A stretch of 46,989 nucleotides of DNA from Peptococcaceae bacterium 1109 (GTDB taxonomy: Bacteria; Bacillota; Limnochordia; Darwinibacteriales; Darwinibacteriaceae): assembly GCA_001028815.1 (NCBI GenBank), contig LDJB01000002.1:606322-653310 (forward strand), read 5' to 3'. A program made the position numbers and the translations under genes. Shown here in pieces: positions 2,738 to 43,815 of the stretch; within the stretch, counting starts at the first letter, position 1; each line of letters begins with the position of its first letter. The notes under the pieces were generated by a model that saw nothing but the letters and a program-made list of their open reading frames with translations, ran no database searches and was not told the origin of the DNA.

Positions 2738-2759
2738 AGGCTACACCTTCCTCGTTTAT

Positions 2760-2803
2760 TTAACGTTCGTTAGTATAGTACCATGTGAGAGTTTCTATGT
2801 CAA
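2760..2803 (-). promoter_or_regulatory. tetR promoter with overlapping operator
   Basis: Read on the minus strand, -35 TTGACA (2803-2798) and -10 TACTAT (2780-2775) are 17 bp apart. The palindrome AACGTTCGTT (2762-2771, extended to TTAACGTTCGTTAG) sits just downstream of the -10. That is the classic position for an autorepressing TetR operator. The same core occurs at 2110-2119. Confidence 0.7.
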
Positions 2804-3187
2804 CGGCCCACAGAAACTTATAGAGACATTTACCGAAAAGTACGATTAGCTCAATCATGGTCGTGAGGCTGCGAAACTGGCCAGACGCCTTCTGGAGACC
2901 CTGGAGCGGCCTTTTCCGGTGAACGTTTGTCGTTGGCGTTGGGTATTGGTGATGCGGATAACATCGACCGCTTTGATGTCTACAGAGTCACGAGCACCTC
3001 TGTAATCTGTCCTTTCTCACATTGCCTTACGAAGAACAGCTGAACAGCGTAATTCAGACTCTATCTAGGCTGGAGAAGTATAGGATACTGGAGCTCGCCA
3101 CAAAGAGAGCAGCGAAGCTTTGGCGAGACAGGATCGATTTCCAAATTCAGTTCTTCACTAGGCTGAAGGCACAGCTAGAGGCGAGTG
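2804..3187 (+). other. Non-coding or decayed stretch with two coding fragments
   Basis: No intact gene is visible. A stretch at about 2868-3044 reads in one frame as protein-like sequence (GERLSLALGIGDADNIDRFD) ending in TGA. An overlapping frame at 3022-3207 codes 61 mostly helical residues ending at TAG. Neither has a ribosome-binding site and I recognise neither. They may be remains of a gene upstream of the broken lipoprotein. Confidence 0.3.
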
Positions 3188-4609
3188 ATGCTCTTTTATC
3201 GTTCTAGCGCTGAGTGGTTGTACGGGTGGAGGCTCCAAGGTCAGCTATAAGTTGACTGTTTCGGTTGACGGCAACGGCACTGTTGAGCCTTTTGTTGGCC
3301 CACGTGAGTATAGTAGTCCTACAATCGTGACCCTAACAGCGAAGCCTGATGAGAACTCCGAGTTTGAACGCTGGATCGGGGACGTCTCCAGTCCCGACAC
3401 GCCGGAAACGGAAGTTGTGGTAGACCGCGATAAGGCCGTTGTAGCGGCTTTTGTCGGTTTGCTAGGGGCAGAAATTCCCGTTAAAACAGGAGATGCTATC
3501 CGGTTCACGAACGGTGTTGTTGTGGATCTGCAAAACGTTGATGTGCCAGCGGAAACAACCGTTATCGTCACGGATGTCGCGGAGGAAATTGGGCTCCCCG
3601 AAGAACTGCAGCTGGCGGGATCCGCAGTTGAGATTGATTTCGAATCCGCCGGCGAGCTCGACTTCTCCGAGGGGGTGGTTCTGAGGCTGCCTGTTGATCC
3701 GGGGGCGGACCCTGATCAAATTGGTGTGTTTCACCTCAACGGAACAGAATGGCACTACTTGCCCACTACAGTAGAGGACGGATCGGCAGTGGCCACAGCC
3801 ACCAGCTTCTCCACTTTTGCGGTGTTGGCGGCAGAAACTTCCGCACCGGTGGAGTCGTCAGTTGTGGGGTTTCGCGTTGAGCAAGGCGAAGAGATAGTAC
3901 TCTCCGCAAGCCCCGCGGCGCAAATCTGGTACAGCACAACGGGCCCAGATTATCCAGGAGATTACCAGCTGTACGAGCCACCACTCGCGATGCCGGGCGG
4001 GTATTTTGAGTTTTACGCTGTGGCAGTGGAGCCGAACAAGCGGCCCAGCGAGGCCACGAAGTTCAGATACGTGGATGCCGATTATACGGTGGTTATCGTG
4101 AAGGACGAGGCTGGGGAGCCAATGAACGGTGTTGGGGTATGGTTCATCGAAAGATCGGAACGTATCTACACCGACGAGGAAGGTTTTGCAGCCCAGAGGA
4201 TAATCGGAGAAGAAACAATAATCATACCCTTCTTGGAAAATCACGTCTTTGAGCCATCGGCGACAATCGGAGGAAGGGGCGGCACGCTTACGTATGTGGG
4301 CAAGCCTAGTGTAGAACAGGTCATCAGAACAGACTTGGCTTTTAACCCCGTGGAATTCCAAGATCCAGGCAAGCTTAACCCCTTTGTTTCGCCTAGAATC
4401 AGAGAAGCCATGAACAGGCTGATCGACAGGCATCACCTAGCCAGCATTGCTGGTGAGTTCGTCTACCCAATTTGGACATTCCTGACGCAGGACAGCTTTG
4501 ACTACGGCTTCATGGAAGATGTTCTTGCTCGGCTGGAAACGAGCTACGCTTATGACCTCGATGGTGCTCGGCAGATCATTGAAGACGAAATGAAGAAACT
4601 AGGTGTTTT
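3188..4609 (+). pseudogene. Lipoprotein with Big-like repeat domains fused to part of a peptide ABC substrate-binding domain (5' half, split by IS)
   Basis: A lipobox (LALSGC, Cys codon 3219-3221) has no in-frame start. ATG 3188 would reach it only if one T of the run 3194-3197 were absent, so the 5' end appears frameshifted. The frame then runs through a divergent InlB-type repeat (KLTVSVDGNGTV ... FERWIGDV), an unassigned beta domain, a chitobiase C-terminal-like segment (WYSTTGPDYPG) and a carboxypeptidase-regulatory-like segment. It then switches to a family-5 substrate-binding region (IREAMNRLIDRHHLASIAG). The N-lobe that normally precedes this segment is missing. The IS interrupts the frame after EDEMKKLG. 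The remainder resumes at 6247. Confidence 0.7.
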
Positions 4610-6215
4610 GGGGGTGCGGACAAAAACCTGGACTTGTAAGTCAGGAGGTAGTCCATGCATTCCTACGAGGAACGAATGAAGGCAGTCCAACTGTTCATCA
4701 AGTATGACTTAAGTGTTGCTGATACGATCAGGGAGCTAGGTTATCCTACCCGCAATACGCTAATTCGGTGGTATAATGAGTACCTCGAAAAAGGTGATTT
4801 GCACGAGAAATTTCAGAAGAAGCCCAGGTTCACGCAGGAGGAGAAAAGAAAAGCTGTTGACTACTATCTTGAGCACGGACGTTGCGTCAGACGGACAGTC
4901 AGGAAACTGGGTTATCCGTCTCGAACGACGTTGACACAATGGATAGATGAACTAGCGCCCGGAGAACGAAAGATTCGCATAACCCAAGGTTCCATGGTAA
5001 AATTCTCTCAAGAACAGAAAAAGGAAGCCGTTATTTCCCTATGCACTAACGAAGCGTCGGCAGCGACTCTGGCCGAAAAACGCGGAATCAGAAGGGAAAC
5101 GCTGTACAAGTGGAAAAAGCAGCTCCTCAGCGAAAAAGGTCAGATAACCGTGGAACAGTTGAGACAAAAGCCCCTGCCTGATGACAAAGATGAATTGGAG
5201 ATGGAGCTAGAGTCTCTGAAAAGACAGGTATACCGGCTCCAGCTAGAGTTAGATATTCTCCAAAAGGCCGCTGAAGTAGTAAAAAAAGACCGGGGCATCG
5301 ATCTCCAAAAGATGACGAATAGAGAAAAGACCATGGTGATCGATGCCCTAAGAGAGAAATACCCACTAAACGAATTACTAGCTCTCGTTGCCATCTCCAA
5401 GAGCAGCTATTTCTATCAGAAGAAAGCGTTGAGCCGGCCAGACAAATACGCTTCTTTGCGGAAAGAAGTAAGGGATGCGTTCGGGAAAAGCAAGTGTGTC
5501 TATGGTTACAGGCGAATTCACGCTGCTCTCCGGAAGAACGGCATAACATGTTCGGAAAAAGTAGTTAGGAGACTGATGCTTGAAGAGCACCTTGTGGTAC
5601 AGGGAAAGAAAAGACGCAGTTACAGTTCCTACCTGGGTGAGATTAGCCCAGCTGTACCTAACTTGCTGGAACGCGACTTTCACGCAGAAAAACCAAATGA
5701 GAAATGGCTGACAGATATCACGGAGTTTCACATACCAGCGGGCAAAGTCTATTTGTCTCCTCTCGTTGATTGCTTCGATGGTATGGCGGTTAGTTGGACG
5801 ATAGGCACTAGCCCCGACGCGGAACTTGTTAATACGATGCTTGACGGCGCTATAGCCTGTTTATCTCCTGGAGAACACCCCGTTATACATACCGACCGTG
5901 GCTGTCATTATCGTTGGCCAGGATGGATTGCCCGCATGGAAACCGCTGGGTTAACTCGCTCGATGTCCCGAAAGGGATGTTCCCCAGATAACGCTGCATG
6001 CGAAGGCTTCTTTGGAACGCTAAAGAGCGAAATGTTTTACACGAGATCTTGGGAAGGTGTTTCTCTGGAAGAGTTCATATATGAGCTAGATGGTTTTCTT
6101 CGCTGGTATAATGAGGAGCGGATCAAAATATCTTTAGACGCTATGAGCCCGATAGAATATCGACGAAGTCTTGGCCTAGCCGCGTAGTCAAGTCCAAAAA
6201 AACGTCCGCACCCCC
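4610..6215 (+). mobile_element. IS3-family insertion sequence
   Basis: The ends are imperfect 26-bp inverted repeats: GGGGGTGCGGAC at 4610-4621 and its complement GTCCGCACCCCC at 6204-6215, with GGACTT and AAGTCC at the inner edges. They enclose a single IS3-type transposase gene. No target duplication directly flanks these repeats. Instead (A)ACTAGG is found at about 4597-4603 and again at 6245-6250, outside TGTTTT on the left and the 29-bp IS21-like end on the right. The IS3 element therefore seems to lie inside the relics of an earlier insertion in the substrate-binding-protein gene. Confidence 0.85.
4655..6187 (+). CDS. IS3-family transposase, single fused ORF
   Basis: This 510-residue DDE transposase has three N-terminal helix-turn-helix segments (VADTIRELGYPTRNTL, VRRTVRKLGYPSRTTL, AATLAEKRGIRRETLYKWKK). 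A coiled coil (about 170-205), an HTH_21-like region and an rve integrase core follow. Catalytic residues are visible as D in WLTDITEF, D in IHTDRGCHY and E in CEGFFGTLK. Most IS3 elements make OrfA and OrfAB through a -1 frameshift; here the two are fused in frame. An A7 run at about 5280 (VVKKD) sits where the shift site normally lies. AGGAGG precedes ATG 4655. The gene appears intact. Confidence 0.93.
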   Translation: MHSYEERMKAVQLFIKYDLSVADTIRELGYPTRNTLIRWYNEYLEKGDLHEKFQKKPRFTQEEKRKAVDYYLEHGRCVRRTVRKLGYPSRTTLTQWIDELAPGERKIRITQGSMVKFSQEQKKEAVISLCTNEASAATLAEKRGIRRETLYKWKKQLLSEKGQITVEQLRQKPLPDDKDELEMELESLKRQVYRLQLELDILQKAAEVVKKDRGIDLQKMTNREKTMVIDALREKYPLNELLALVAISKSSYFYQKKALSRPDKYASLRKEVRDAFGKSKCVYGYRRIHAALRKNGITCSEKVVRRLMLEEHLVVQGKKRRSYSSYLGEISPAVPNLLERDFHAEKPNEKWLTDITEFHIPAGKVYLSPLVDCFDGMAVSWTIGTSPDAELVNTMLDGAIACLSPGEHPVIHTDRGCHYRWPGWIARMETAGLTRSMSRKGCSPDNAACEGFFGTLKSEMFYTRSWEGVSLEEFIYELDGFLRWYNEERIKISLDAMSPIEYRRSLGLAA

Positions 6216-20020: not shown

Positions 20021-20741
20021 CTATTTTCTGGTGTTGCTACAAGAGTATGCATTTTTCCTTGACCTGTCAAGCTTTTCAGTGGTCACATAAGCTAGCAAGC
20101 CTACTATGCTGGCAAGGGCGGTGAACATCACCCATCTCCACGGATAGACTCTCTTGCGGCGTGCATCCGTGTAAACCCACAGCACGCTCAAGGGCCAGTG
20201 CGTCAAGAATAGGTATACCAAAGCCGCGTAGCTAGCCCAAATCAATCGGGTGGGAAGGGGAAGCCATAGGGCCACACTCACTGTGGTGCCATCGTGCTGT
20301 GAATAGCTCTTCAGAAGAAACGTAGGGCTGCGCCCGATAAAGGGATAGCGGTCAACAAGGGGTTCCAGCCAGTTCCCCAAGGCTGATGTAAGCTGGGTGA
20401 GGAAATCTGGATCAGGACTACGGTTGTAGGCCTCAATAAAGTCTTCGGCCGAACCGGTTAGCCTGTGGGGAGAACTGTGCTCTATCTCACCGCTGGCCCC
20501 AATCTAACTGGTTTCTTCTAAGGTATGGCAAGAGTATCAGCCCGCAGAGGTTCAGAACAACGCCAACAGTAAACAGGCGGCTCGCCCAAGGCGCATCAAG
20601 GATACAGAGAAGGAGCAGTCCAGAGAAGATATAGGCTGCCCAGAATAGCCAATCCTTCCACCGCACAGCGGGGGAAGGCCTGCGGGAAGAAGCGGCTTGT
20701 TGATCCGCTGCGATTTGCCCAATCACATTCTCCATCTTCAT
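20021..20741 (-). pseudogene. Membrane protein gene split by a frameshift
   Basis: ATG 20741 opens 84 codons (two hydrophobic helices, ending QLDWGQR) to TGA 20487. In the neighbouring frame the coding sense continues without a gap as GASGEIEHSSPHRLTGSAED and runs to 20021. That part has two more helices and a VYTDARRKRVYPWRWV motif typical of small membrane proteins. The break is at a GGGG run near 20500. The ATG overlaps the end of the truncated ABC ATPase and has no ribosome-binding site of its own. Together with that truncation, this looks like a decayed ABC-transporter-linked membrane protein of about 240 residues. Confidence 0.6.
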
Positions 20742-21268
20742 ATGAGGCGGCGAAAAGACACTCTCTCATGGGGGTCTAGCCCAGCAGTGGGCTCATCAAC
20801 GATGACTACCCGGGGGTCGTTAAGTAAGAGCTGGGCTATACCTAGGCGCTGTTTCATCCCTCCAGAAAAGGTGCCCACTTTTTCGTTATGCACATCCCAG
20901 AGATTGACCTGCTCTAACACGCGCTGGATGCGCCAGGCGCGTTCAGGAGCTGAATGGATCCCCGACAGGATGGCAAGATAATCTAGGCACTCCGCCGCAG
21001 TCAAGTTCGGGTAAAAGCCGAACTCTTGGGGCAAATACCCCAAGATGGCCCGCACCGCATGCTTGTCCTTGAGAAGGTCAATGCCATAGACCTTCACTTG
21101 CCCGTGAGTGGGCAGCAGCAGCGTTGCTAGGATGCGTATGAGAGTGGTCTTGCCTGCGCCGTTCGGCCCTAACAAACCGTGGATGCCTGGAGAGACTGCC
21201 AGGTAGATGTTGTCCAGTGCAGCCTTCCCCTGTGGGTAGATCTTGCTTAAGCCTTTAATCTCGATCAT
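20738..21268 (-). pseudogene. ABC transporter ATP-binding protein, C-terminally truncated
   Basis: This 176-residue product begins at ATG 21268 after AGGGGG. It has Walker A (GPNGAGKTT), a Q-loop (GYLPQEFG), the ABC signature (FSGGMKQRLGIAQ), Walker B (VVIVDEPTAGLDP) and the D-loop. It stops at SFRRLI, before the H-loop His and the C-terminal region of a normal ATPase of about 230-300 residues. It resembles ATPases of ABC-2 exporters, but no intact permease follows. Without the H-loop it should not hydrolyse ATP normally, so I treat it as a broken gene. A deletion at about 20741 is likely. Confidence 0.75.
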
Positions 21269-21346
21269 ATCTGTGCCCCCTTTGACTGTTAGACGGCAAA
21301 GGGCGGGCTTTCGTTGAAGGGGATACGCTGGGCAAACCACCCAGCG

Positions 21347-23431
21347 TTAATACTCTCCGCACACAGGACACTTGTACCACCAGTTGCCTTGAGCATTGGG
21401 AATCGGCTCATGCAAGCACAGTTCTCCTGTTTTAAGGATTGCATGGCTTGGGCGGTAAACGCAGTGCTGGATCACCATCACCCTTCCGCATGTCTGGCAG
21501 TTGCAGTAGAGGGGGATGCCGTAGCACTTGTTTGTATCGGTATGTAAGAGTTCTTCGATCCACTTTGTTTCGGTTCGGTTCGGAGGAACGTAGGTACCGG
21601 GGCGCAAGGTGATTTCCGTGCCAGGGCCGAGTGCTCTTGCACAGTGGATGCAGATATCCCTTTGCTCTCCATGGTAGTGGAGAATGAGGCCAAAGATCTT
21701 TCTCAACTGCCGATTGGCGGTGTAACCCGGCCGCAGGCTGATGGCGCCAAGGCGGTGGGCAAGATATGACCGATCTGCCTCCGGTGTATTAAGTCTTGCT
21801 GCTAGGGGCTTTTCTCCCCAGAAGTCGAGTTCCTCATCGGTATGGAGGATGAAAGCTGCGGTCAAGTTGAAGGGTTTACCGTATTTATCCCGCGCGCAGC
21901 CTTCCACATCTTCCAATACTTGAGGGATCCCTTGTGCGTTGTAGTCTCGGTACTTCGCATCAAAGACCACCTGCAGCTCCTTCTTGCGGCTGCCTCGGGT
22001 AATGTCTATTTCCAAGAAGATGTCTGGCTTCACGTGCCCCGATCCGCTCGGCTTCGGCAGCTCCTTTTCGTAATAAACGCCGATGGCTAGAGTAGGCCCG
22101 CCCGGAATAGTTCCCCGGAGGCCAAACCGGGTATTAGTGGGAATTACCAGTTCCCCTCGTTTGATTTTGATTTGGTCAAACAGGCTGCGGCCATCCTCTG
22201 GCCGCAGATGGAGCTGGGTAATTAAGCTGCTGTAAAGGCGGACCAAACACCAGATTTCATACAGTTCCCACGTTGCCTTCACATTGCCCTGCCACAGTTC
22301 GGTAAACAGTGATAGGACATGCTGAATGCCATCAAGAGAGGCCTTGCGGCTGTTGAAGAACTCCCGTACAACAGCGGCATACCCTGGGGTGCCCAGCAGC
22401 CGCTGCGTGATTTCAGGCAGCACTCTAGGGGTAGAGACGTCTTTAAGAAATGATGTCCGCCGAGCTTTCTTTGCCCATTCAATAGTCTGTTGCAGCTCCT
22501 GGAGGGTTGCGGCAATGGTCTTGTTGAGCTCCGCAGTGACTTGGTTGGCCTTGCTTAACCTCGCCCTTGCTTGCCGGGTAAACCCTTCGAAGTTGGCAAT
22601 GCTAGCCAGCTCATCCAGGACCGATTCATCAACCAACTCCCCTTGTGAGGATTGGAGCAGAGCGGCCGTCCCTTCTGCCACCAAAATGAGATAGTGGTCA
22701 AGAAGGTGGCAGAGGAACTGGTTTTCACTGCAATCGCTACCGGAAAGGCGCCTTAGGCCAAGCTGGGGCGTGTGGGGCCCTCGGACATAGGCTTTGACGA
22801 GCATCTGTGGAGAACGGACTTGGTAATAGTCCCGGTTAATGCCTGTCCCCACCTTGATTTCCCTTAACGGCCGTTTGGTGATCACAGCCCAGTTTTGCTG
22901 CAAAGCCCTGCCCAGGCGCAGCAGCGACTCTGCCGATCGGAAGTAGCCCCTCATCCCCTGGGGGATGCCCCCTATCTGGCCCTCGCCAAGCTGGTCCGGC
23001 ACTGGGCCTGCAAGATTGCCATAGAGGTAAGTTGAGGTAGATAGGGCAAGCAGGCCAATGTCTCTGAGCATCTTCTCCAGTTCTTCATCCCCGATATTCG
23101 CAGTCAGCACCTCAAGTTTGGCCGCTGTCCCCTGGCCGTGGAGCTCTCTGCCGTGCTCATCTGTGAGCTTGACCAAAACTGTCCCTGCAGGGGTCTTGAC
23201 CGCATCCCGAATGCGCCGTTTCTTGGGTCTATCTTTGGGAATGAACCAGTTCTGCTTATCTGTGGACGTGAGCTCAAGGAGTTGGCCATCCCGTTTTTTG
23301 AGCGCAACTTTGCCCTCCCAGGGAGTGCTGAGCTGCACCCACCATTCTCCTTGAAACTGGCGGATGTGGGGAAGGCCATCTATTTCTGGAAGGGGCCCAT
23401 TTTCATCCCTAAAAGTAATCTTTGGATACAT
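21347..23431 (-). CDS. DUF2357 / McrC-like PD-(D/E)XK protein with zinc-ribbon tail
   Basis: This 694-residue protein has beta-rich N-terminal parts (about 1-130), a helical DUF2357-type middle with a coiled-coil stretch (about 290-330), and then a restriction-endonuclease-like core. The core shows KPDIFLEI followed by QVVFDAKYRDY, which supplies the Asp and the D-x-K of a PD-(D/E)XK active site. The last 90 residues carry Cys pairs (CIHC, CNCQTC, CPVC) like a zinc ribbon. McrC-like proteins pair with an McrB-like AAA+ motor in type IV (modification-dependent) restriction. Here the motor gene lies 6 bp upstream. Likely a cytoplasmic defence nuclease; the target modification is unknown. Confidence 0.75.
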   Translation of the reverse strand: MYPKITFRDENGPLPEIDGLPHIRQFQGEWWVQLSTPWEGKVALKKRDGQLLELTSTDKQNWFIPKDRPKKRRIRDAVKTPAGTVLVKLTDEHGRELHGQGTAAKLEVLTANIGDEELEKMLRDIGLLALSTSTYLYGNLAGPVPDQLGEGQIGGIPQGMRGYFRSAESLLRLGRALQQNWAVITKRPLREIKVGTGINRDYYQVRSPQMLVKAYVRGPHTPQLGLRRLSGSDCSENQFLCHLLDHYLILVAEGTAALLQSSQGELVDESVLDELASIANFEGFTRQARARLSKANQVTAELNKTIAATLQELQQTIEWAKKARRTSFLKDVSTPRVLPEITQRLLGTPGYAAVVREFFNSRKASLDGIQHVLSLFTELWQGNVKATWELYEIWCLVRLYSSLITQLHLRPEDGRSLFDQIKIKRGELVIPTNTRFGLRGTIPGGPTLAIGVYYEKELPKPSGSGHVKPDIFLEIDITRGSRKKELQVVFDAKYRDYNAQGIPQVLEDVEGCARDKYGKPFNLTAAFILHTDEELDFWGEKPLAARLNTPEADRSYLAHRLGAISLRPGYTANRQLRKIFGLILHYHGEQRDICIHCARALGPGTEITLRPGTYVPPNRTETKWIEELLHTDTNKCYGIPLYCNCQTCGRVMVIQHCVYRPSHAILKTGELCLHEPIPNAQGNWWYKCPVCGEY

Positions 23432-23437
23432 CCTGGG

Positions 23438-25372
23438 CTACCTCCAATAGCTTACCAGTGGCCGAAGTTCATCGCTAACTTGGGCGCTCAGCCAGGCAGC
23501 TACAGACTGGGCGGAAGGGGAGAGGTAGGGGCGTACTTCCCGGTTGTTGAGCCAGCTTAACAAGGCCTCTCCCTTTCCACCCTCATCATCCTTTAAGAAC
23601 CTGATGCGTGGTAGGATTTTCGTGAAAATGAAGTACCGGAAGGCTTCTTTTCCATCCATGCCCAGAAGGTGGGCTGTGTTGGTGAACACCCGGAAATCCC
23701 GCTTCGCTCTGTGTCCGAGAGGGAGAACCACGTCCTGAAGCTGGTCTTTCCAACCCAGCAGTATTGTCCAGTAGTCTTCCCCCTCTGGAGCCAGAGGGGT
23801 GTCGCTGAGTGCAGGTTGGATATCCGCTAAGCTGAGGGGAAGGCGCAGATCATCAAGATTTCTCGGGATGGTATTTAGGTAGTCCTCGAGCTGTGCGGGG
23901 GGGAACTGAATCACATAGGACCGATCGATTACCTTCGGGCTTAAGTCATAGGTGGTTTCATCTGCGTTCAATGTCCCCAGAAGAACCAGGTTTTCCGGGA
24001 TACCCAAAGTCCCAGGGTAAGTCTTCAATAATCCTGCCAGTTCCTCAAGGCGAAGCCTTTTCTCCACCGACAAGTTTCTTCCCTCTTTCTGCAGTTCAGC
24101 CTGCTCTGTACAGAGCAAAGTGAGTTCGTTCCGCAATCGGGTCTGGAGATCTTGAGCGTACAATTTGAGCCCATCTGTCCGCTGTCCTTCGCCGTCCCCT
24201 TTGCTGTATTCCAACACCGATAATAGGTCTGCCCCATAGTCTTCAATCCGCGCGAGGTTAAGCTCATCCAAGGCTAAGAAGAAGAGCCGATCAGAGTAGT
24301 TCTTCGCTTCTATAAGGCCGTTCACAAATGGTGAAGGGGAATAGATGTTCCGCAGGGGATCGTAAAAGCCCAAGAGGTCAGAGGAGTCCAGCCAGCCTGG
24401 GCGGACTGGCACCACCTCATCCCCTCCATCTAGGAGCTGTGCAGCGGTGCGAATGGTGCTTGTCTTACCTGTTCCAACTGGCCCGCTCAGGAGGACGAGG
24501 CACCCGCTGAGGCACGCAGTAAGCGTGGACACGAGAAAGCTGAGGCAGATATCCTCAGGGAGTCTCAATCCTGCACTTTCAATGGCTTTAACCCACTGTT
24601 CCCTGATTTCCACCAGGTTCATGCTGGCCCGGGCTGTGCGCCCTGCCTTGACTTCCTTGGGGAACAGATATTCTATGTGTTTGATGTGGTTCTCATAGAG
24701 GCTTTCAAGCTTGGCCTTCTCCGCAGCAAGCTCATTGGCTTTCGCCTCAAGCACCTTGCCCTTGCCTTCCAATTCTCGCCAAGTATCAGCCAGTGAACGC
24801 CGCTCTTGTTCTAGCTGGATATCTTTTGCCACAGCCTGACCTAGTTGTTGCTCAGCTAGTTCCTTGAGTTTCACTGCTTGTTCCAGTTTCGCTTCAGCTT
24901 CTGCCAGCTTGCTTTGGGTACGTGAGCTCACTTCTTCATCAATGCTAGCCTCTGCCTTGCTGAGCTCGTGGTGCAGTCGTTTTATCAGTTCTGCTTGCAG
25001 GTAGTCCAGTAAGTTTTTTCTTCGCTCTTCAAAAGCATCCTCAGTTATTTGCCTCACGTTCTTCGCTATGGCATATGCTGTTCCGTTTCTATCCCGCTTC
25101 GCAGTTCCAGGGTTAACCCAGTGAAACCGTACCAGGTCGTCTTTCTTCACTGCGCCTGCTTCAGCCAGTGCTTTGTGGGAAGCAAGAAAAAGGGTAGCAG
25201 GCTCACCTAAGCTAGTGGGCAGTCCCGGGATTTCACAACGGATTATGCACCTCTTAGATGAGACGCTTTCTACTCTTCCCACTAAAGCATGTTCCTGCGA
25301 TTCCGTTAGGAGAGGAATAATCCACCAATATTGTACATAGTCCTCGCTCAGTTCGTATTCTGGTGACAGCAA
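23438..25372 (-). CDS. McrB-like AAA+ ATPase/GTPase with N-terminal coiled coil
   Basis: This 644-residue protein has a small beta-rich N-terminal domain (about 25-110, possibly OB-like), a long charged coiled coil (about 115-235) and an AAA+ motor. The motor shows Walker A GPVGTGKTS (about 297-305), Walker B FFLALDELNLARIE and sensor-1 segment GTLNADETTYDLSPKVIDRS. The NADETT...SPKV(I/L)DR pattern marks McrB-related AAA proteins rather than canonical E. coli McrB (MNTADRS). TTG 25372 has AGGAG at 9 nt. It is first in a two-gene operon with the DUF2357 protein. The long coiled coil recalls described coiled-coil McrBC variants; placement there is inference. Confidence 0.8.
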   Translation of the reverse strand: MLSPEYELSEDYVQYWWIIPLLTESQEHALVGRVESVSSKRCIIRCEIPGLPTSLGEPATLFLASHKALAEAGAVKKDDLVRFHWVNPGTAKRDRNGTAYAIAKNVRQITEDAFEERRKNLLDYLQAELIKRLHHELSKAEASIDEEVSSRTQSKLAEAEAKLEQAVKLKELAEQQLGQAVAKDIQLEQERRSLADTWRELEGKGKVLEAKANELAAEKAKLESLYENHIKHIEYLFPKEVKAGRTARASMNLVEIREQWVKAIESAGLRLPEDICLSFLVSTLTACLSGCLVLLSGPVGTGKTSTIRTAAQLLDGGDEVVPVRPGWLDSSDLLGFYDPLRNIYSPSPFVNGLIEAKNYSDRLFFLALDELNLARIEDYGADLLSVLEYSKGDGEGQRTDGLKLYAQDLQTRLRNELTLLCTEQAELQKEGRNLSVEKRLRLEELAGLLKTYPGTLGIPENLVLLGTLNADETTYDLSPKVIDRSYVIQFPPAQLEDYLNTIPRNLDDLRLPLSLADIQPALSDTPLAPEGEDYWTILLGWKDQLQDVVLPLGHRAKRDFRVFTNTAHLLGMDGKEAFRYFIFTKILPRIRFLKDDEGGKGEALLSWLNNREVRPYLSPSAQSVAAWLSAQVSDELRPLVSYWR

Positions 25373-25451
25373 TGTCCACTTCTCCTTTCAGCCCGAGGAA
25401 GTATCCTTCATATGTTCTTCGCTGTGGGGATGCTTTTCCCTAGCTAGAAGG

Positions 25452-25479
25452 TTGCTTCACAGGACAAGGCGAATACAAT
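25452..25479 (+). promoter_or_regulatory. Promoter of the DUF3800-like gene
   Basis: -35 TTGCTT (25452-25457) and -10 TACAAT (25474-25479) are spaced 16 bp apart and lie 28 bp upstream of ATG 25507. The region between the divergent genes is only 134 bp, so both promoters share it and could be co-regulated. Confidence 0.55.
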
Positions 25480-25506
25480 AATTAACATTTTCAAGGAGAT
25501 GGGAAT

Positions 25507-27645
25507 ATGCAGGTTAGGCACTACGAACTGTTCCTGGATGAGAGCGGCAACTTCACTGACGGCCGGCCTTCCCTGATAGGAGGCGTTTTTTGCTCTAGTG
25601 GGCAGCTCACAGAAGAGCTGGCCTTACAGCTCTTGGGGGAAAGCCTTAGCGAGGTGGGCCTTGACTTCCCTGAAAGCGGACAGGTGCACGGCACAGAGCT
25701 GCCTAAGGATGTGTTTGCCCCCTTCGCGCTCAGCCTAATCAGGAACATGCTTGCCAAGGAAATCCAGCCCATTGTCTTTGAGAACCAGGAACGGATCGAA
25801 ATCGTCGATCCTGATACTACCTACATTCACCTGGTGGCAGAGGGTATAACCAGGCTTTTTTCTGCCTTGAGCTGTGCAGGCAGGGAGACTGCCCTGAGCG
25901 TCACCGCTGCTCGGCGCATGGTGGAGGACAAGCAACATCAATCAGCGTTGAGGGCCATTCCCCGGGAAGAGTACTTATACCGGATCAAAGAACACATGGC
26001 CACTGCTATGCTGCGCCTCGGTGTCCGGGAATACCGGGATCAATGGTCTTTAGACGGGTTTCGCCTCGGTTCAGCCAGGACAGAGTATACTCTGATGCTC
26101 GCGGATGTGATCTGCCACGCCTGGTACTCCCGCTATACTAAGTTTGATGCGCAAGGCAGAACTCGCCTGGAGCAGGCTTTAGGGCGTTTTCACTTCACAG
26201 TCGTAGAAAACGGGGTTTTAGCAGCCATTGCCCGGAAACGGAGCGATGGTGCTTTCGGCGAAGCTCTCTTCCTCGCCCTGTCCGAACTGGGTGTGGCTCC
26301 TACCAGCGCCAATCAAGAACGCCTCGCATACCAGCTGGAATATGAGGTGGAGCAGATATTGGAACTCCTTGCAGGGATGCCCCGCTTTGGCCTTCGCCAG
26401 CACATTGATGCCCTCCTGGTGCAGGCGGATTACTTAGTGGTAATCCAAAAGGATTACGAGCGGGCTGAGCGGGTTCTTCTACAAACCAAGAAAAGGGTGC
26501 TAGAACCTCTTGGTAAGCGTTTGGGCAGCCGCTTTGCTGGCCTTGATGGGGCAAACCTGAGAGTTGCTTCTCTTCTCCTTGCCATCCATAACCACAGGGG
26601 TTTTGTCCATACCCTAGAGGATGTCTTAGGTAGTGCGGACAGTGCCCTAACCACGCTAGCTCAGCGCTTCGAAAACCTTGACCTCGTCTTGAGCTACCTC
26701 AATCGGAAGACAGTTTACTTGAACAACTCCTACAACTTCGGGGCAGCTTTGGAGCAGATCGACCGATTGATCAGGTTCCATGAAGAGATCATGAGCCTTT
26801 ATCCAGTGGAACTGCCGCAGTTGTTTGGGGACGGGTTAAAGTCAGACATTCTTGGAAAGCTTTACGGGAGCAAAGTGCAGACTCTGACATTCCTTGGAAG
26901 AAAGGAACCAGAATACTACGCATTCGCCCGGGAAGCGTCAGCGCGGGCGATTCAGGAGTTCGAAAGCCCGGAGGATGTTTGCCGGCAGTATCTCTATCGC
27001 TGCCAGCTAGAAACAGATGCAGGCCAATTCCAAGCTGCTTGGGAGTACTTGGTGAGGGGGACGGCTTACCGCGAGGGGCCTCTCAGCCCAGATGAACTCG
27101 GGGCTTTCCTCAGGGGGGACGAAGATGGGAGGAATACCTTCTCTCTTGCCCATTACTGCCGGTTGATGGCAGCCTGCGTGTTAAGGGGGGATAAAGGGGC
27201 TCAGGACTTTGGGGAGGCAATGGCCGAGGCTTGGCGCGCCCACTCCCTCGATGAACACCCCTTCCTAATGAGAGGCTTCGCGGCACATCCATTGGAGATA
27301 ATCAAGTGGAAACTGGGGAGCTGCTTTCTCGCAGCTAACCGGGTGAAGGAGGGCCTAAAGCGGCACCAAGAAGCCCTCAATATTTGCTTTAATGATGGAG
27401 ACAGCCTGACACTTCACACCATCGGCCTCGGGATTTTGGTGGAACAAGCGGGCCTCTTGCTTAAGTTAGGGAGCAAGCACTATCCTCAAGCCTTGGAGCA
27501 AGCCCGGAGGCAGGTAGCTAAGTTCCTCAACCGGCCCGAGCTTCCCAAAGCCATGAGGGAGTATTTCGCTCACTGGCCAAGGGCACTGGAAAGGCCTAGC
27601 TCCAGCCAGAGCCTTCTGGCGTTGTCCTGGGAAGTGCCATATTAG
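25507..27645 (+). CDS. DUF3800-like domain fused to TPR-like helical repeats
   Basis: This 712-residue protein starts at ATG 25507 with AAGGAG at 8 nt. The N-terminus (YELFLDESGNFTDGRPSLIGGVF) matches the start of DUF3800, an RNase H-like fold with a conserved DESG acidic motif. A second Asp occurs in the LMLADVICHAWYS helix, as expected for that fold. From about residue 260 the protein is entirely helical with TPR-like units (EALFLALSELGVAP, AEYLV- and ALEQIDRLIRFHEEI-type pairs). It is transcribed divergently from the McrBC-like pair, suggesting a third component or a linked defence gene. DUF3800 proteins are frequent in defence and mobile regions, with no settled function. Confidence 0.65.
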   Translation: MQVRHYELFLDESGNFTDGRPSLIGGVFCSSGQLTEELALQLLGESLSEVGLDFPESGQVHGTELPKDVFAPFALSLIRNMLAKEIQPIVFENQERIEIVDPDTTYIHLVAEGITRLFSALSCAGRETALSVTAARRMVEDKQHQSALRAIPREEYLYRIKEHMATAMLRLGVREYRDQWSLDGFRLGSARTEYTLMLADVICHAWYSRYTKFDAQGRTRLEQALGRFHFTVVENGVLAAIARKRSDGAFGEALFLALSELGVAPTSANQERLAYQLEYEVEQILELLAGMPRFGLRQHIDALLVQADYLVVIQKDYERAERVLLQTKKRVLEPLGKRLGSRFAGLDGANLRVASLLLAIHNHRGFVHTLEDVLGSADSALTTLAQRFENLDLVLSYLNRKTVYLNNSYNFGAALEQIDRLIRFHEEIMSLYPVELPQLFGDGLKSDILGKLYGSKVQTLTFLGRKEPEYYAFAREASARAIQEFESPEDVCRQYLYRCQLETDAGQFQAAWEYLVRGTAYREGPLSPDELGAFLRGDEDGRNTFSLAHYCRLMAACVLRGDKGAQDFGEAMAEAWRAHSLDEHPFLMRGFAAHPLEIIKWKLGSCFLAANRVKEGLKRHQEALNICFNDGDSLTLHTIGLGILVEQAGLLLKLGSKHYPQALEQARRQVAKFLNRPELPKAMREYFAHWPRALERPSSSQSLLALSWEVPY

Positions 27646-27707: not shown

Positions 27708-27747
27708 ACGGACTTATCTTGACTAGAAGGATAAGTTCGTTTTTTTG
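27708..27747 (+). terminator. Intrinsic terminator in the leader of the tandem-AAA gene
   Basis: ACGGACTTATCTT (27708-27720) pairs with AAGGATAAGTTCGT (27727-27740), with one G-U pair and one bulge, followed by T7. It can terminate the upstream gene. It also lies downstream of the TATAAT promoter, so that promoter's transcripts would be cut to about 50 nt unless read through. This is an attenuator-like arrangement. Confidence 0.7.
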
Positions 27748-27813
27748 CCCTCTAGTGAACCTTGTCAGCTGAATAGGGTGTGCAGTTTGACACCGGGAAT
27801 CTTGAGAGGAGTG

Positions 27814-29535
27814 TTGATTATCAGCAATCACAAAACCCCCGCTGTGGAGCAGCCTTCCCATGTATCCCTGGACAAGCCAGTTACGTGGGAAGAGGTTCAA
27901 AGGGACATCCGTTCTCTCGTGGGAGCGCAGCTTGTTAAAGAGCAGCTGCTCGAGATTACCCGCATCCTTGGCAACATCAAGGAGCACCAGGCACGCCATC
28001 ATCTCACTAACATGCCCCCCATTCATTTTCTCATCAAGGGCCCAGCAGGGGGCGGAAAGCGGTACGTAGCCCGTATCCTCAGCAAGATCCTACAGTATTA
28101 TCAGCTAGCAGAGAAGCCGCTGCACATGGTCACAGTAAGCAACATGGAATCCCTTCCTGAAGTCTCGGCCCAATCTCCCATCTATGTGCCTGTTGTGGAC
28201 AGGCTTATTCCTAAAGACAGCCGCCGCAATTATCTAGTCACTACCTTATTCTGGGCGCACCTCGAACGCATCGCTGACCGTCAAAGCGTAATCTTGGGGG
28301 TCGATTCAGAGCGCGGGTCAGAATTCGTCGAGGCCCTCACGTTTGCCCCCGAGATTCAGTTTAAGATTGAGATCCCCGACTACCGCTGGGAGGACTTGCT
28401 GGCCTACGCCCGGAAATATGCAGCACAATACAAGTTCAAATTGGTCAAGCCCGCAGTGGCAGAGTTCCGGCGCGCCCTGGAAGAAGCCCAGAGCAAGCCA
28501 GATTTCGCCAATCTCCGCTCAGTGGAGAAGATAATCGATCGGGCGATGATGAACTACTATATCAAACCAGGCCAGGACGCCCCGCACGGGAAGCAGTACG
28601 CCGCTCTCCAGGGCCAGCACTTCATCGTGAGCCCACATGTGCATGCCGTACCGGTGGCCCAGAAGGCCCAGAATCCCCTTGCCCAGATCAACTCATTGGT
28701 GGGCCTCAAGGAAGTTAAGGCAAGGCTCAATCAGCTCATGGCACTAGCGAATCTGCAGAAAAGACGCTCAGAACAAGGGCTTTCTGCAGAGCCCATCAGC
28801 ACCCATATGGCTTTTTCAGGTTCCCCCGGCACCGGGAAAACAACTGTGGCCCGCTTGGTGGGGCAGGCTTTGAAGGAATTAGGCTTGCTGGAAAAAGGCC
28901 ACTTAGTTGAAGCCGCCCGGGAAGACTTGGTTGGGCAGTACGTTGGCCACACCGCGCAGAAGACAGCGGATGTAGTGGAACAAGCCCTCGGGGGCGTGCT
29001 GTTTATTGATGAGTGCTACAGCCTGAACGCAGGCCACGGCATGGACTATGGCCGGGAAGCGGTGGCCACTCTAATTAAGAAGATGGAGGACGCCCGGGAC
29101 AATCTCACGGTGATCTTCAGCGGGTACAGTCAGGAAATGGAAGCGTTCCTGGACATGAACCCTGGGCTGAGATCTCGGATTCAGTTCCACCTTACCTTTC
29201 CCGACTATACAGGCGAAGAGCTGATGGAGATTTTCCTCAAGCTCTGCCACGACGAGGGGTATGAGCTGTCAAGGGAGGCCGCGTTGGAACTAGAAGCTCT
29301 CTTGCAGCAGCTCTACGGGAAGAGGCGGGACAACTTCGCCAACGGCCGCTTGGTCCGGTCTCTATTTGAGCGGGCGAAGCTCTCCTTAGCCACAAGGGTA
29401 TGGCAGGACCCAAAAACTGCCTCGCTGAGCCTCATCCTGCCCCAGGACGTTCAAGCCTTAGCCACCTATAGTGATGTGGCTGGCCTTTTAAGGGCACAAC
29501 GCCGGGGGATTGGCTTCCACGCTGTAAGCGCTTAG
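27814..29535 (+). CDS. Tandem AAA domain protein, CbbX/SpoVK-like
   Basis: This protein of about 573 residues has two AAA modules. The first (about 50-270) is degenerate: Walker A is GPAGGGKR with Arg in place of Thr/Ser, and the Walker B strand ends VDSE rather than DE. The second (about 295-560) is canonical, with GSPGTGKTT, GVLFIDECYSL, sensor-1 VIFSGY and Arg-finger region MNPGLRSRIQFH. This is the CbbX/SpoVK pattern of AAA remodelling ATPases. The start is uncertain. GAGAGGAG at 27804-27811 is followed by TTG 27814, then ATT and ATC codons at better spacing. The frame extends to 27745, but that part overlaps a terminator. Confidence 0.8.
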   Translation: MIISNHKTPAVEQPSHVSLDKPVTWEEVQRDIRSLVGAQLVKEQLLEITRILGNIKEHQARHHLTNMPPIHFLIKGPAGGGKRYVARILSKILQYYQLAEKPLHMVTVSNMESLPEVSAQSPIYVPVVDRLIPKDSRRNYLVTTLFWAHLERIADRQSVILGVDSERGSEFVEALTFAPEIQFKIEIPDYRWEDLLAYARKYAAQYKFKLVKPAVAEFRRALEEAQSKPDFANLRSVEKIIDRAMMNYYIKPGQDAPHGKQYAALQGQHFIVSPHVHAVPVAQKAQNPLAQINSLVGLKEVKARLNQLMALANLQKRRSEQGLSAEPISTHMAFSGSPGTGKTTVARLVGQALKELGLLEKGHLVEAAREDLVGQYVGHTAQKTADVVEQALGGVLFIDECYSLNAGHGMDYGREAVATLIKKMEDARDNLTVIFSGYSQEMEAFLDMNPGLRSRIQFHLTFPDYTGEELMEIFLKLCHDEGYELSREAALELEALLQQLYGKRRDNFANGRLVRSLFERAKLSLATRVWQDPKTASLSLILPQDVQALATYSDVAGLLRAQRRGIGFHAVSA

Positions 29536-30817: not shown

Positions 30818-30827
30818 ACCTCTAGAT

Positions 30828-30940
30828 TGTCTCCGAATGCTGCATAGTAGTGGGGGACCCACCTTTTTTGGGGTGAATCTTGTTCTGGCAAGAGGGGCGA
30901 CTTGGGCGTCCTAACCCGACAGCTAACCCCATAGGAGTAC
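30828..30940 (+). ncRNA. ydaO/yuaA (c-di-AMP) riboswitch
   Basis: The conserved blocks of this class appear in order: GTGGGGGACCCA (30850-30861), GGGGTGAATC (30870-30879), GGGGCGAC (30894-30901), then CCCGACAGCTAACCCC (30915-30930). P1 closes with CTCC (30831-30834) and GGAG (30934-30937). It is followed by an intrinsic terminator, so c-di-AMP binding probably promotes termination, as in most members. It controls a cation antiporter and a PII-like protein, fitting the role of c-di-AMP in potassium and osmotic control. Confidence 0.93.
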
Positions 30941-30943
30941 ACC

Positions 30944-30988
30944 AAGCGTGTGACATGACTCATTTGAGTCCCGTTATGCGCTTTTTTT
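30944..30988 (+). terminator. Riboswitch expression-platform terminator
   Basis: AAGCG (30944-30948) pairs with CGCTT (30979-30983), and the inner stem GACTC/GAGTC closes an ATTT loop. The middle pairs with a few wobbles, and T7 (30982-30988) follows. It sits between the aptamer and the antiporter start. Confidence 0.8.
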
Positions 30989-31043: not shown

Positions 31044-32264
31044 ATGAATGTTTTGCTCAAGCTCGGAGTCATCTTAATTGTTGGCCTTTTGGGCGGAAAA
31101 ATCGCACGCCTGTTCAAACTGCCCAATGTTTCTGGTTACTTAGTAGCGGGTTTGCTTTTGGGGACATCGTTCTTCAAAATCGTCAGCCCCGCAGATGTGG
31201 ATGCCTTCGCTGTAATCAGTGAAGTTGCATTGGCAATTATTGCCTTCAGCATTGGCAGTGAGTTCCTGCTGAAAGATATGCGCAAGCTCGGCAAGTCGAT
31301 TGTGGTGATCACTCTCCTCGAGGTCATTGGGGCAGTGGCAGTGGTATTCTCCATAATGTATTTCGGCTTCAAACAGCCCTTTGCCTTCAGTATAGTGATC
31401 GCGTCCATGTCAGCGGCCACCGCTCCCGCGGCTACATTGCTTGTGATGCGCCAGTATCGTGCCCGTGGCCCATTGACCAGTACCGTTCTGCCTGTGGTGG
31501 CCTTGGATGACGTCTTTGGGATCATGGCCTTTGGGATTGCTATGTCTGTTGCCCGCCTTTCCATGGGCAGCAACCTCTCGCTCTTACAGATGCTAGTTCA
31601 GCCTGGGGTTGAAATCTTTGGCTCATTGGCCTTAGGCGCGGTCCTTGGGTTAGGGCTCTGGTGGTTATCCAGGGGAGCGGCTGATCGTGATGAGCTGCAG
31701 GGCATCTCACTAGCAGCTATTGCGGTGGCCACAGGGCTGGCGAACCATTTCCACTTGTCGCCCCTTTTGACTTGCATTACCATGGGGACTGCGCTGGTTA
31801 ACCTGCAGCCCAACTCTGCCAGGGTGTTCGGCTCAGTAAATGATTTTGCCGCTCCCGTATACGTGCTGTTCTTTGCCCTCGCAGGAGCCAGCCTGGATCT
31901 GGGTATCCTGATGAAGGTAGGAGTCATGGGCGTGTTTTATATCTTCGCTCGGGCTGCAGGCAAGATGATCGGGGCTGCGGCAGGAGCGAAAATGGTCAAC
32001 GCACATCCAAACGTCACGAAATACCTCGGCCTGGCACTGCTCCCCCAAGGCGGAATTTCCATCGGCTTGTCTGTCTTAGTCAGGCAGCTTCTGCCAGAAT
32101 ATGCCCCGGCCATTACTACCATCATCATGTTTAGCGTCCTGATTTACGAAGTGACCGGGCCAATCTTCGCAAAGATTGCCATTGCAAAAGCAGGGGAAAT
32201 CAACGGCATGGATAAAGCCGGTGATCATCAAGCCGTTCCTGTTGTAGAGGAACTGGTATTCTAA
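31044..32264 (+). CDS. CPA2-type cation:proton antiporter
   Basis: This 406-residue protein has about 12 transmembrane helices and no cytoplasmic RCK domain. GKIARLFKLPNVSGYLVAGLLLG is the typical first hairpin of Kef/Na-H exchanger proteins, VVALDDVFGIMAFG the helix carrying the transport Asp pair, and LALLPQGGISIGL a conserved CPA2 element. ATG 31044 follows GGTGGGG. Expression is under the c-di-AMP riboswitch. Monovalent cation (K+ or Na+) exchange with H+ is the family function. K+ is favoured by the riboswitch context, but ion and direction are not shown by sequence. Confidence 0.9.
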   Translation: MNVLLKLGVILIVGLLGGKIARLFKLPNVSGYLVAGLLLGTSFFKIVSPADVDAFAVISEVALAIIAFSIGSEFLLKDMRKLGKSIVVITLLEVIGAVAVVFSIMYFGFKQPFAFSIVIASMSAATAPAATLLVMRQYRARGPLTSTVLPVVALDDVFGIMAFGIAMSVARLSMGSNLSLLQMLVQPGVEIFGSLALGAVLGLGLWWLSRGAADRDELQGISLAAIAVATGLANHFHLSPLLTCITMGTALVNLQPNSARVFGSVNDFAAPVYVLFFALAGASLDLGILMKVGVMGVFYIFARAAGKMIGAAAGAKMVNAHPNVTKYLGLALLPQGGISIGLSVLVRQLLPEYAPAITTIIMFSVLIYEVTGPIFAKIAIAKAGEINGMDKAGDHQAVPVVEELVF

Positions 32265-41141: not shown

Positions 41142-43556
41142 TTACTTCACCACAATATTGTAGATCTTGCCGGGGACGTAGATTTCCTTGACGATGTTTT
41201 TCCCTTCAATGTAGCGCTGGATGTTTCCATTAGCCATGGCCAGCTCCCGTGCTCGTTCCACAGGGTCTGTGAGGGATACAGTAATCTCGCCCCGGACCTT
41301 GCCGTTAATCTGCACTGCAATATCCACCGTTTCTTCAATAACCTTATCCGGATCCCACTTGGGCCATTCCTGGGCATGTACGTAACCAGGGAAGCCCATG
41401 CGTACCCACATTTCTTCCGTGATGTGGGGAGCTACTGGATTGAGGAGGATGAGTAGCGTCTTCAGCTCAGCGTGGGTAATGCGGCCCACGGCAAAGATTT
41501 CGTTCAGCAAGGCCATCATCGCGGCGATGGCTGTGTTAAACTTGAGGTTCTCGTAGTCTTCGCTGACCTTCTTAATGGTCTTGTGGAAGCTCGTTTCCAG
41601 ACTCGGGTTGAACTCCTTGCCTGGCACAGCCATCTCTTGCAAACGCCAGAACCGATCAAGGAAGCGCCTGCAGCCCCTAACGCCATCGGTGGACCAGGGA
41701 ACGCTCTTCTCAAAGTCGCCGATAAACATCTCGTACAGCCGCAGCGTATCCGCACCGTATTCCGCCACAATCTCGTCGGGGTTAACAACGTTGCCCCTGG
41801 ACTTAGACATCTTTTCGTTGTTTTCCCCAAGAATCATCCCGTGGGAAGTACGCTTTTTATAGGGTTCCGGATAGGACACAACACCGATATCATACAGGAA
41901 CTTGTGCCAGAACCGGGAGTAGAGCAGGTGCAGGGTGGTGTGTTCCATCCCACCGTTGTACCAGTCCACAGGCAGCCAGTAGTCGAGCCTGTCTTTGGCC
42001 GCAAGATCCTCATCGTTTTGAGGATCGGTATAGCGGAGGAAGTACCATGATGACCCTGCCCACTGTGGCATGGTGTCTGTTTCCCGCTCCGCGGGGCCGC
42101 CGCACTTGGGACAGGTCGTCTCCACCCAATCCCTGATCTTTGCCAGCGGTGATTCTCCTGTATCTGTTGGCTCGTAGTTTTCCACATCGGGGAGGACTAC
42201 CGGGAGTTCCTCTTCAGGGACAGGCACCCATCCGCACTTGTCGCAGTGCACCAAGGGAATGGGTTCGCCCCAATAGCGTTGGCGGGAGAAGACCCAGTCA
42301 CGCAGTTTGAAGTTGACTTTCCGCCGCCCCAGCCCTTGTTCTTCCAGCCAGGCAGTGATCTTCTTGATGGCCTCTGACACTTCCAAGCCGTTAAGGAAGC
42401 CGGAGTTTACCATGATCCCCGATTGGGTGTCGGTGTATGCTTCCTCTTGCACGTTGCCTCCAACCACCACTTCCACGATGGGTAGGCCGAACTTCCGGGC
42501 AAACTCCCAGTCCCGTTCATCGTGGCCAGGAACAGCCATAATGGCGCCGGTACCATAGGTCATGAGGACATAGTCAGAAATCCAGATGGGAATCTCATTG
42601 CCTGTGGCTGGGTTCAAAGCCCGCAGCCCCTTGATTTCTACACCTGTCTTGTCTTTAGTCAGCTCAGCCCGTTCGAAATCGGACTTCTTCTTTGCTTGGT
42701 CCCGGTACGCCATGAGCTCAGCATAGTTGCTGATCTGCTCTTTGAATTCGTCAAGGAGGGGATGCTCCGGAGAAATGACCATGTACGTGGCGCCGAAGAT
42801 GGTGTCAGGGCGCGTTGTGAAGACACGCAGCTTGTGGGGAGTCCCTACTACAGGGAAGTCCACTTCTGCGCCTTCAGAGCGTCCGATCCAGTTCCGCTGC
42901 TGCACTTTCACCCGGTCGATATAATCCACCAGTTCCAGGTCATCGATGAGGCGTTGGGCATAGGCAGTGATCTTCAGCATCCACTGATTCTTTACCCGCA
43001 TTTCCACTTCGCTGCCGCACCGCTCACAGCCGCCGTTTACCACTTCTTCGTTGGCCAGGCCGATCTTACACGACGGGCACCAGTTGATGGGCATTTCTTG
43101 CTTGTAAGCCAGGCCCTTTTCAAACAGCTTCAGGAAAATCCATTGGGTCCACTTGAAGTACTCAGGATCGGTGGTGTTCACTTCCCGGGACCAATCAAAG
43201 GAGAATCCCAGTGACCGGAGCTGTTCCTTGAAGCGGGCGATATTCCGCTCTGTCACAATCCGGGGATGGATCTTGTTTTTGATAGCATAGTTTTCCGTCG
43301 GCAGGCCGAAGGCATCCCAACCCATGGGAAAGAGGACGTTGTAGCCCTGCATCCGCCGCTTGCGCGCCACGATGTCCAAAGCCGTGTATGGGCGAGGGTG
43401 CCCCACGTGCAGCCCTTCACCGGAGGGGTAAGGGAATTCGATGAGCGCGTAGAATTTAGGCTTGGAATGATCTTCAGAGGTGCGGAAAGTTCCTTTCTGC
43501 TCCCAAAAATCCTGCCATCTGGGTTCAATTTCTTGGGGATTGTACTTCCGTTCCAA
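41142..43556 (-). CDS. leuS: Leucyl-tRNA synthetase
   Basis: This 804-residue class I synthetase charges tRNA-Leu. The HIGH-type motif is [11 protein letters not shown] near residue 45, and the KMSKS motif is in [11 protein letters not shown] near 570. A zinc-binding insert (CPSCKIG...CERCG) lies near 160-180, and a CP1 editing domain includes [12 protein letters not shown]. Tryptophan-rich [14 protein letters not shown] and the tRNA-binding C-terminus are complete. TTG 43556 is the start, with AGGAGGG at 7 nt. Expression is controlled by an upstream leucine T-box. Confidence 0.97.
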
Positions 43557-43569
43557 GGCAATTCCCTCC

Positions 43570-43815
43570 TAACAGGCACAAAACCCGTTCGCCTTAGAGA
43601 CGAACGGGTCGCGGTACCACTCTAATTAACACGGCTGCCCTGTGCAACTGTGTTCACTCGAAACCTTTAACGGGGTTACCGGTTGGAGTTACTTCCACTT
43701 CACCCCAACAGCTCCTGGGCGAGTTCAGGCTCAGCTGCTGCCTCGCACCATCCGGCAGCTCTCTGGGAAAATTGGCCCTACTACTCCCATTCAAAGCTTG
43801 TAGCAGATGAATCTT
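43570..43815 (-). ncRNA. T-box leader of leuS (Leu CUC specifier)
   Basis: On the minus strand the T-box core AGTGGTACCGCG lies at 43621-43610, followed by the terminator stem ACCCGTTCGTC/GGCGAACGGGT and TTTTG. Stem I shows AGAGAGCTGCC and TGGTGCGA blocks and, after them, a CTC triplet at 43723-43721 as the likely Leu specifier. Uncharged tRNA-Leu would stabilise the antiterminator and raise leuS expression. Confidence 0.92.

Follow-up and report, generated by a model that had tools for sequence, protein, structure and literature searches.

A TPR-DUF3800 protein with a predicted RNase H2-like fold as a recurrent, optional partner of a CoCoNuT Type I-A-like pair

CoCoNuTs are recently described RNA-linked relatives of McrBC, and their Type I-A has been published as two genes, encoding CnuB and CnuC (Bell et al. 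2024, PMC11090510). CoCoNuTs belong to a large branch of McrB relatives recognizable by a shortened NxD motif, a helical insert between Walker B and NxD distinguishes Type I-A, and the Type I-A CnuC combines DUF2357, PD-(D/E)xK and a zinc ribbon; the describers predict RNA as the target, and according to them no NxD McrB GTPase has been characterised (PMC11090510). Here, we analyzed a stretch of 46,989 nucleotides from Peptococcaceae bacterium 1109 (contig LDJB01000002.1, positions 606,322 to 653,310; hereafter the window), where an AAA+ protein (A) and its nuclease partner (B) lie beside a gene for a tetratricopeptide repeat (TPR)-DUF3800 protein (C). C is a new part beside a known kind of pair. 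We assign a probability of roughly 0.55 to the reading that A/B is a CoCoNuT Type I-A-like NTPase–nuclease pair with C as an optional third component, which would dock on the activated immune complex and add a second nuclease.

The three open reading frames (ORFs) were present with the lengths and strands claimed in an earlier sequence-only reading of this DNA, as was the 134-bp gap from which A and C diverge:

21347-23431, minus strand: B, CnuC/McrC-like nuclease of 694 residues, comprising an N-terminal region, a DUF2357-like region (about 291-355), PD-(D/E)XK (389-495) and a C-terminal seven-cysteine zinc domain (594-691); from ORF, Pfam, alignment and PADLOC (PDC-M26B, E 3e-11).
23438-25372, minus strand: A, CnuB/McrB-like AAA+ protein of 644 residues with a TTG start, comprising an N-terminal domain of about 110 residues, a probable coiled coil (about 111-250) and an AAA+ core that has NAD as its NxD sensor motif and a lengthened insert between Walker B and this motif; from motif comparison and PADLOC (PDC-M26A, E 4e-49).
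25373-25506, no strand: A/C divergent intergenic region of 134 bp, with ribosome-binding sites for both genes.
25507-27645, plus strand: C, TPR-DUF3800 protein of 712 residues, comprising a predicted RNase HII-like domain (1 to about 235; LDESG motif and invariant D11, E12, H61, R137 and D200) and TPR helical repeats (about 237-707); from homologue alignment, predicted structures and the DUF3800 model.
27745-29535, plus strand: D, SpoVK/CbbX-like double-AAA protein, a flanking host gene judged to lie outside the system.

A and B are spaced by 6 nt and transcribed together, with C running in the opposite direction. All three genes have plausible ribosome-binding sites, the TTG of A being preceded by AGGAG and the ATG of C by AAGGAG. 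The gap at 25373-25506 gave no significant promoter or terminator match, and no promoter consensus stands out there.

The motor protein A carries Walker A (GPVGTGKT) at residue 297, Walker B (LDELN) at 368 and GTLNADETT at 466, in line with the AAA+ core and NADETT variant recognized before. Its shortened NxD motif (N469-A-D471), present in all 17 relatives compared, agrees with the Type I-A pattern, where NxD is often followed by E or D, whereas classical McrBC has NxxD. The stretch from Walker B to NxD comprises 91 residues in A versus 36-54 in the non-I-A NxD relatives compared, and by this length corresponds to the insert of Type I-A CnuB. It measured 50-54 residues in relatives from the genomes G039, G049, G044, G024 and G050, 92-94 in G666 and G645, and 114 in Klebsiella and Sphingopyxis. 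A coiled coil in A is plausible by composition, two thirds of the region being E, K, L, A, Q or R, with one proline in 152 residues; a simple heptad test gave z 1.6.

For the partner B, the residues of the PD-(D/E)XK site (P469 D470 ... D491 A492 K493) were invariant in seven diverse relatives and PDDEXK_7 exceeded the Pfam cut-off (27.7 versus 22.1 bits), bearing out the intact site described earlier. The DUF2357 region reported at the same time holds for the family, with six of seven members matching, but is weak in the window protein itself (E 0.0065). Likewise, the C-terminal zinc domain is present, but its seven invariant cysteines (594, 597, 645, 648, 657, 688 and 691) probably form two zinc sites rather than the one Cys4 ribbon first suggested. 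A RIG-I-like zinc domain, considered after a phmmer match to LGP2 (E 0.48), was rejected, as the match was lost with a seven-sequence profile and was taken as chance.

Since NxD, the extended Walker B–NxD stretch, DUF2357, PD-(D/E)XK and the zinc cysteines fit the published Type I-A, as does the N-terminal extension of A, the A/B pair appears best described as a Type I-A-like CoCoNuT and not as classical McrBC, an assignment made by features and not by place on the published tree. Type I-A has been described as CnuB plus CnuC only, whereas the window and two other genomes add a TPR-DUF3800 gene. The pair also resembles PDC-M26, a candidate pair of two proteins in PADLOC, although the match of B is weak and partial and C is matched by no M26 model.

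Ordinary McrBC restriction of modified DNA, with C irrelevant to it, appears improbable. The window pair has in common with McrBC of E. coli K-12 a tandem AAA+ motor and PD-(D/E)XK partner, its nuclease site is intact, and a PDB search with the A profile also retrieved McrB (E 5e-5). However, NxD instead of NxxD together with the Walker B insert put A in the CoCoNuT branch, B has a zinc domain, and an extra partner is present which recurs in operon with such pairs. Moreover, Pfam gave a weak AAA_5 match as the sole hit on A and no known modified-base domain at its N-terminus. The sequence-only reading was thus right about a McrBC-related pair, whereas the cutting of modified DNA that it attached to this pair is not supported, as NxD and further features place the pair in the CoCoNuT branch, for which RNA targeting is predicted by its describers (PMC11090510).

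The sequences found closest to the A/B pair come from two cyanobacteria, Nostoc HK-01 and Annamia, where they are plasmid-borne (30-37% over long stretches), and the window pair groups with these plasmid pairs in the tree made here. On plasmid4 of Nostoc sp. HK-01 (AP018322.1, 7927-10188; locus L026, 5915-8176), a CoCoNuT I-A-like AAA protein carries a reverse transcriptase domain (RVT_1, E 1e-18) as an N-terminal fusion, and the gene of its nuclease partner is adjacent; the term 'reverse transcriptase' is absent from the main text of the CoCoNuT paper (PMC11090510). Relatives of A occur on 239 plasmid records, 137 of them from Klebsiella, with other Enterobacteria also represented, and in the one record examined a nuclease gene adjoins. 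The genome of the window itself encodes a second, distant NxD AAA protein on contig C1 (L018, 6834-11149), which has 855 residues, the motif GTANYDETT and a DUF2357/PD-(D/E)XK partner. In three genomes of the same class, a gene of 365-380 codons precedes an NxD AAA–nuclease pair (L012, 8339-9436; L013, 9575-10705; L014, 3898-5037); it is possibly a further subunit, and the one of these tested gave no Pfam match.

By itself, C gave no convincing match in database searches. A phylum-wide whole-genome search yielded two full-length relatives and profile searches more, resulting in 11 genes with the DESG domain including that of the window, with homologues counted in 10 genomes besides the window's; the sampling covered 1,661 genomes (with repeats), mostly of one phylum. 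The DUF3800 model (PF12686) run over the genomes fell exactly on the C gene of G705, at 28.6 bits against a curated cut-off of 21, and gave weak matches on three others; among nine members, three matched at E up to 0.1. Judged by these profile matches, C belongs to DUF3800 at the family level. Matches in G775, G678, G141 and G358 covered the TPR part only and were not counted as C, and a match in G046 (L021) was rejected as chance. Scans of the IMG/VR and PLSDB collections yielded no phage or plasmid carriage of C. Among the genome-collection scans, that with the single A sequence gave no match and that with the C profile only two loci already known, the pattern scans being insensitive.

An AlphaFold2 model of C residues 1-241 reached a predicted local distance difference test (pLDDT) score of 86 and a predicted template modelling score of 0.87, and its first 17 PDB matches in Foldseek were all RNase HII, H2 or HIII (top matches 1eke, 2dff and 3puf, E 2e-5 to 7e-4). 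The amino terminus is thus predicted to adopt an RNase H fold of the RNase HII-like kind. The full-length model was confident as well (pLDDT 84) and its C-terminal two-thirds match TPR proteins, so that both the DUF3800-like amino terminus and the helical repeats previously read from the letters are recovered. Residues D11, E12, H61, R137 and D200 were invariant in nine proteins. DExG is the signature of RNase HII, and the DESG of C coincides with it. C shares the predicted fold and this motif on the first strand with RNase HII/RNase H2 and differs from them by its low identity (about 12%), its TPR extension, a third catalytic aspartate that is not seen and another genomic setting. DUF3800 genes are linked to non-coding RNAs; a structured RNA beside C was looked for and rejected, since neither the window nor eight C loci gave an Rfam match around this gene. 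For DUF3800, an RNase H fold with a catalytic rearrangement has been described (Altae-Tran et al. 2023, PMC10910872).

The recurrence of the DUF3800-TPR gene beside such a pair, set beforehand as a test, was found in two Selenomonadaceae, G645 and G666. In both, C is the third gene of a CoCoNuT operon on one strand in the order AAA–nuclease–C (in G645 AAA 228-2306, nuclease 2310-5417, then C; in G666 the same order on the other strand), with pairs homologous to A/B by BLAST (AAA E 1e-33 to 2e-35; nuclease E 2e-10 to 1e-8). The C start overlaps the nuclease stop codon as ATGA and TGATG, respectively. As the two CnuC proteins share only 27% identity, this arrangement is old or has been made repeatedly. 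Among 189 Selenomonadaceae, CoCoNuT was present in 8, C in 9 and both in 4, versus 0.38 expected (hypergeometric P 1.6e-4, uncorrected for kinship). The proposal of a linked defence module is thereby supported.

Four further C genes lie in or beside type III CRISPR genes, so that in this sample C pairs with type III at least as often as with CoCoNuTs. In G089, it follows cmr6 in a III-B operon; in G713, at a III-D locus, 3 nt separate it from the CARF-HEPN gene before it; in G705, it follows Cas6 at a contig end; and in G559, an ATGA overlap joins it to a CARF-HEPN gene, the III-D genes lying about 10 kb off. The C tree places the window protein as sister to the III-B homologue (99/99) and the operonic G645/G666 group elsewhere, which indicates that the CoCoNuT pairing either has at least two origins or is ancient and was broken up repeatedly. 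The genome of the window gave no Cas10 match, and C is hence not a local type III leftover. From its genomic contexts, C is a recurrent but optional partner which appears portable among RNA-triggered systems, and no obligate McrBC part. The DUF3800-TPR gene as partner of a single system, as proposed earlier, therefore holds insofar as it recurs with the pair, but not in exclusivity, as it also accompanies type III CRISPR and many CoCoNuTs lack it.

TPR-DUF3800 proteins have also been found with a sub-branch of Cas12a2 (Altae-Tran et al. 2023, PMC10910872), and DUF3800 with VI-F and V-A2, including Cas13f (PMC12669027). The Cas12a2-locus proteins share with C the TPR plus DUF3800 architecture, the RNase H fold and, as in G379 below, a UvrD helicase neighbour, the likeness being one of architecture and not of direct sequence comparison; their partner is a crRNA (CRISPR RNA)-guided Cas12, whereas here it is a CoCoNuT pair. 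A role in crRNA biogenesis, one option suggested for the Cas12-linked proteins, would suit the type III and Cas12a2 contexts, which have crRNAs (PMC10910872). We regard it as very improbable for C, since CoCoNuTs lack crRNA and the window's genome lacks a Cas10 match, which makes a general crRNA-processing role unlikely and calls for a crRNA-free role at least here.

Several observations weigh against C as a docked nuclease of the A/B pair. The window C lies below Pfam detection for DUF3800. No invariant acid follows strand 4, leaving D11, E12 and D200 as the only invariant acids; the usual third aspartate of the RNase H2 active site (DEDD) is not visible, so that C may have a changed catalytic activity or none. 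Of the traits of published Type I-A, the CSD/OB fold at the start of CnuB and the immunoglobulin-like N-terminal beta-sandwich of CnuC would be present in A and B by analogy, and the coiled coil of CnuB is probable by composition. C adjoins only two of the eight Selenomonadaceae CoCoNuT I-A loci (six lack it), the window C is divergent from A/B, so that co-expression is not guaranteed, and four C genes adjoin neither CoCoNuT nor CRISPR. Of these four, the gene of G379 (Schwartzia succinivorans) adjoins a UvrD-exonuclease gene, those of G793 and G761 have no obvious partner, and that of G654 (L042, 8736-18414) opens a cluster of genes on one strand, the others encoding an Hsp70-like protein, an NB-ARC ATPase and two proteins for which Pfam gave no match; this looks like an undescribed defence cluster. 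In G379, a CoCoNuT I-A pair lies directly downstream of III-D CRISPR genes including Cas6 (L093, 3720-9806), 63 kb from C.

The four stand-alone genes and the divergent orientation are what one would expect if C were an independent small defence or toxin-like gene merely sharing defence islands, with no physical or functional link to A/B. The site itself points the same way: G001, of the same genus, retains gene D along with the patatin and DUF3842 genes, and DarT-like and macrodomain genes (L111, 2645-4533) stand upstream of D where the window has A/B/C, indicating a variable defence slot. Overlapping start and stop codons join C to cnuC in G645 and G666 and to the CARF-HEPN gene in G559; this and the above-chance co-occurrence with CoCoNuT in one family argue for a link, and we consider an independent C rather unlikely, though it carries real weight.

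For the preferred reading, an optional third component of the A/B system, we propose the following mechanism. The CnuB ring would sense the invader, through RNA or a translation-linked cue as predicted for CoCoNuTs, and CnuC would stimulate NTP hydrolysis and supply its intact PD-(D/E)XK nuclease for an antiviral effect. C, as an RNase H2-fold DUF3800 protein, would then form a complex with the activated machinery by docking through its TPR repeats, adding a second predicted nuclease most likely directed at RNA, whether free or paired in a hybrid, either as effector or as processor of products. The same C module is built into type III CRISPR operons, and Cas12a2 and Cas13f loci contain proteins of similar architecture. 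Wherever the trigger is known or predicted, this architecture accompanies RNA-triggered or RNA-linked systems (type III in the loci found here, Cas12a2 and Cas13f in published work, CoCoNuT by prediction). A nuclease of RNase H2-like fold, docked through TPR repeats and attacking RNA or hybrids once the system is activated, fits all these contexts.

The same fold would suit clean-up, with C as a regulator or off-switch which degrades RNA, hybrid products or signals made on activation and so limits self-harm, instead of acting as effector. A common attenuator of this kind would be in keeping with the association of C with several unrelated systems whose shared trait is collateral RNA damage (PMC10910872). 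CoCoNuT, Cas12a2 and type III share no one known signal molecule, however, and the stand-alone C genes would have nothing to attenuate; an off-switch is thus unlikely in our view. Among effector, processor and attenuator, C would most likely be a docked ribonuclease that serves as effector or processing enzyme.

The window lies at one end of a contig of 653 kb, and the genome to which it belongs measures 2.7 Mb (96.75% complete). The A/B/C module is not set apart by GC content. Gene D was rejected as a member of the system, as it is conserved in relatives without A/B/C (G001, G015 and G011). Downstream of B, an ABC transporter ATPase ORF (20738-21340) ends after 200 residues, shorter than the models matched, and is possibly truncated. 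Further along, a c-di-AMP riboswitch (30821-30953) lies upstream of a cation/proton antiporter-like gene (31044-32264) and a T-box leader (43593-43803) upstream of a leucyl-tRNA synthetase-like gene (41142-43556).

Type I-A CoCoNuTs have so far been published as two genes alone, and a recurring third gene whose product is predicted to have a nuclease fold offers a direct handle on their function. The presence of C in the type III loci found here, together with the published Cas12a2 and Cas13f loci, suggests that RNA-triggered immune systems share a step. More tentatively, TPR-DUF3800 may be a portable RNase H2-type effector common to the otherwise unrelated systems CoCoNuT, type III CRISPR, Cas12a2 and Cas13f, with different sensors docking the same module. 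If true, the presence of a TPR-DUF3800 protein would itself predict an RNA-triggered system.

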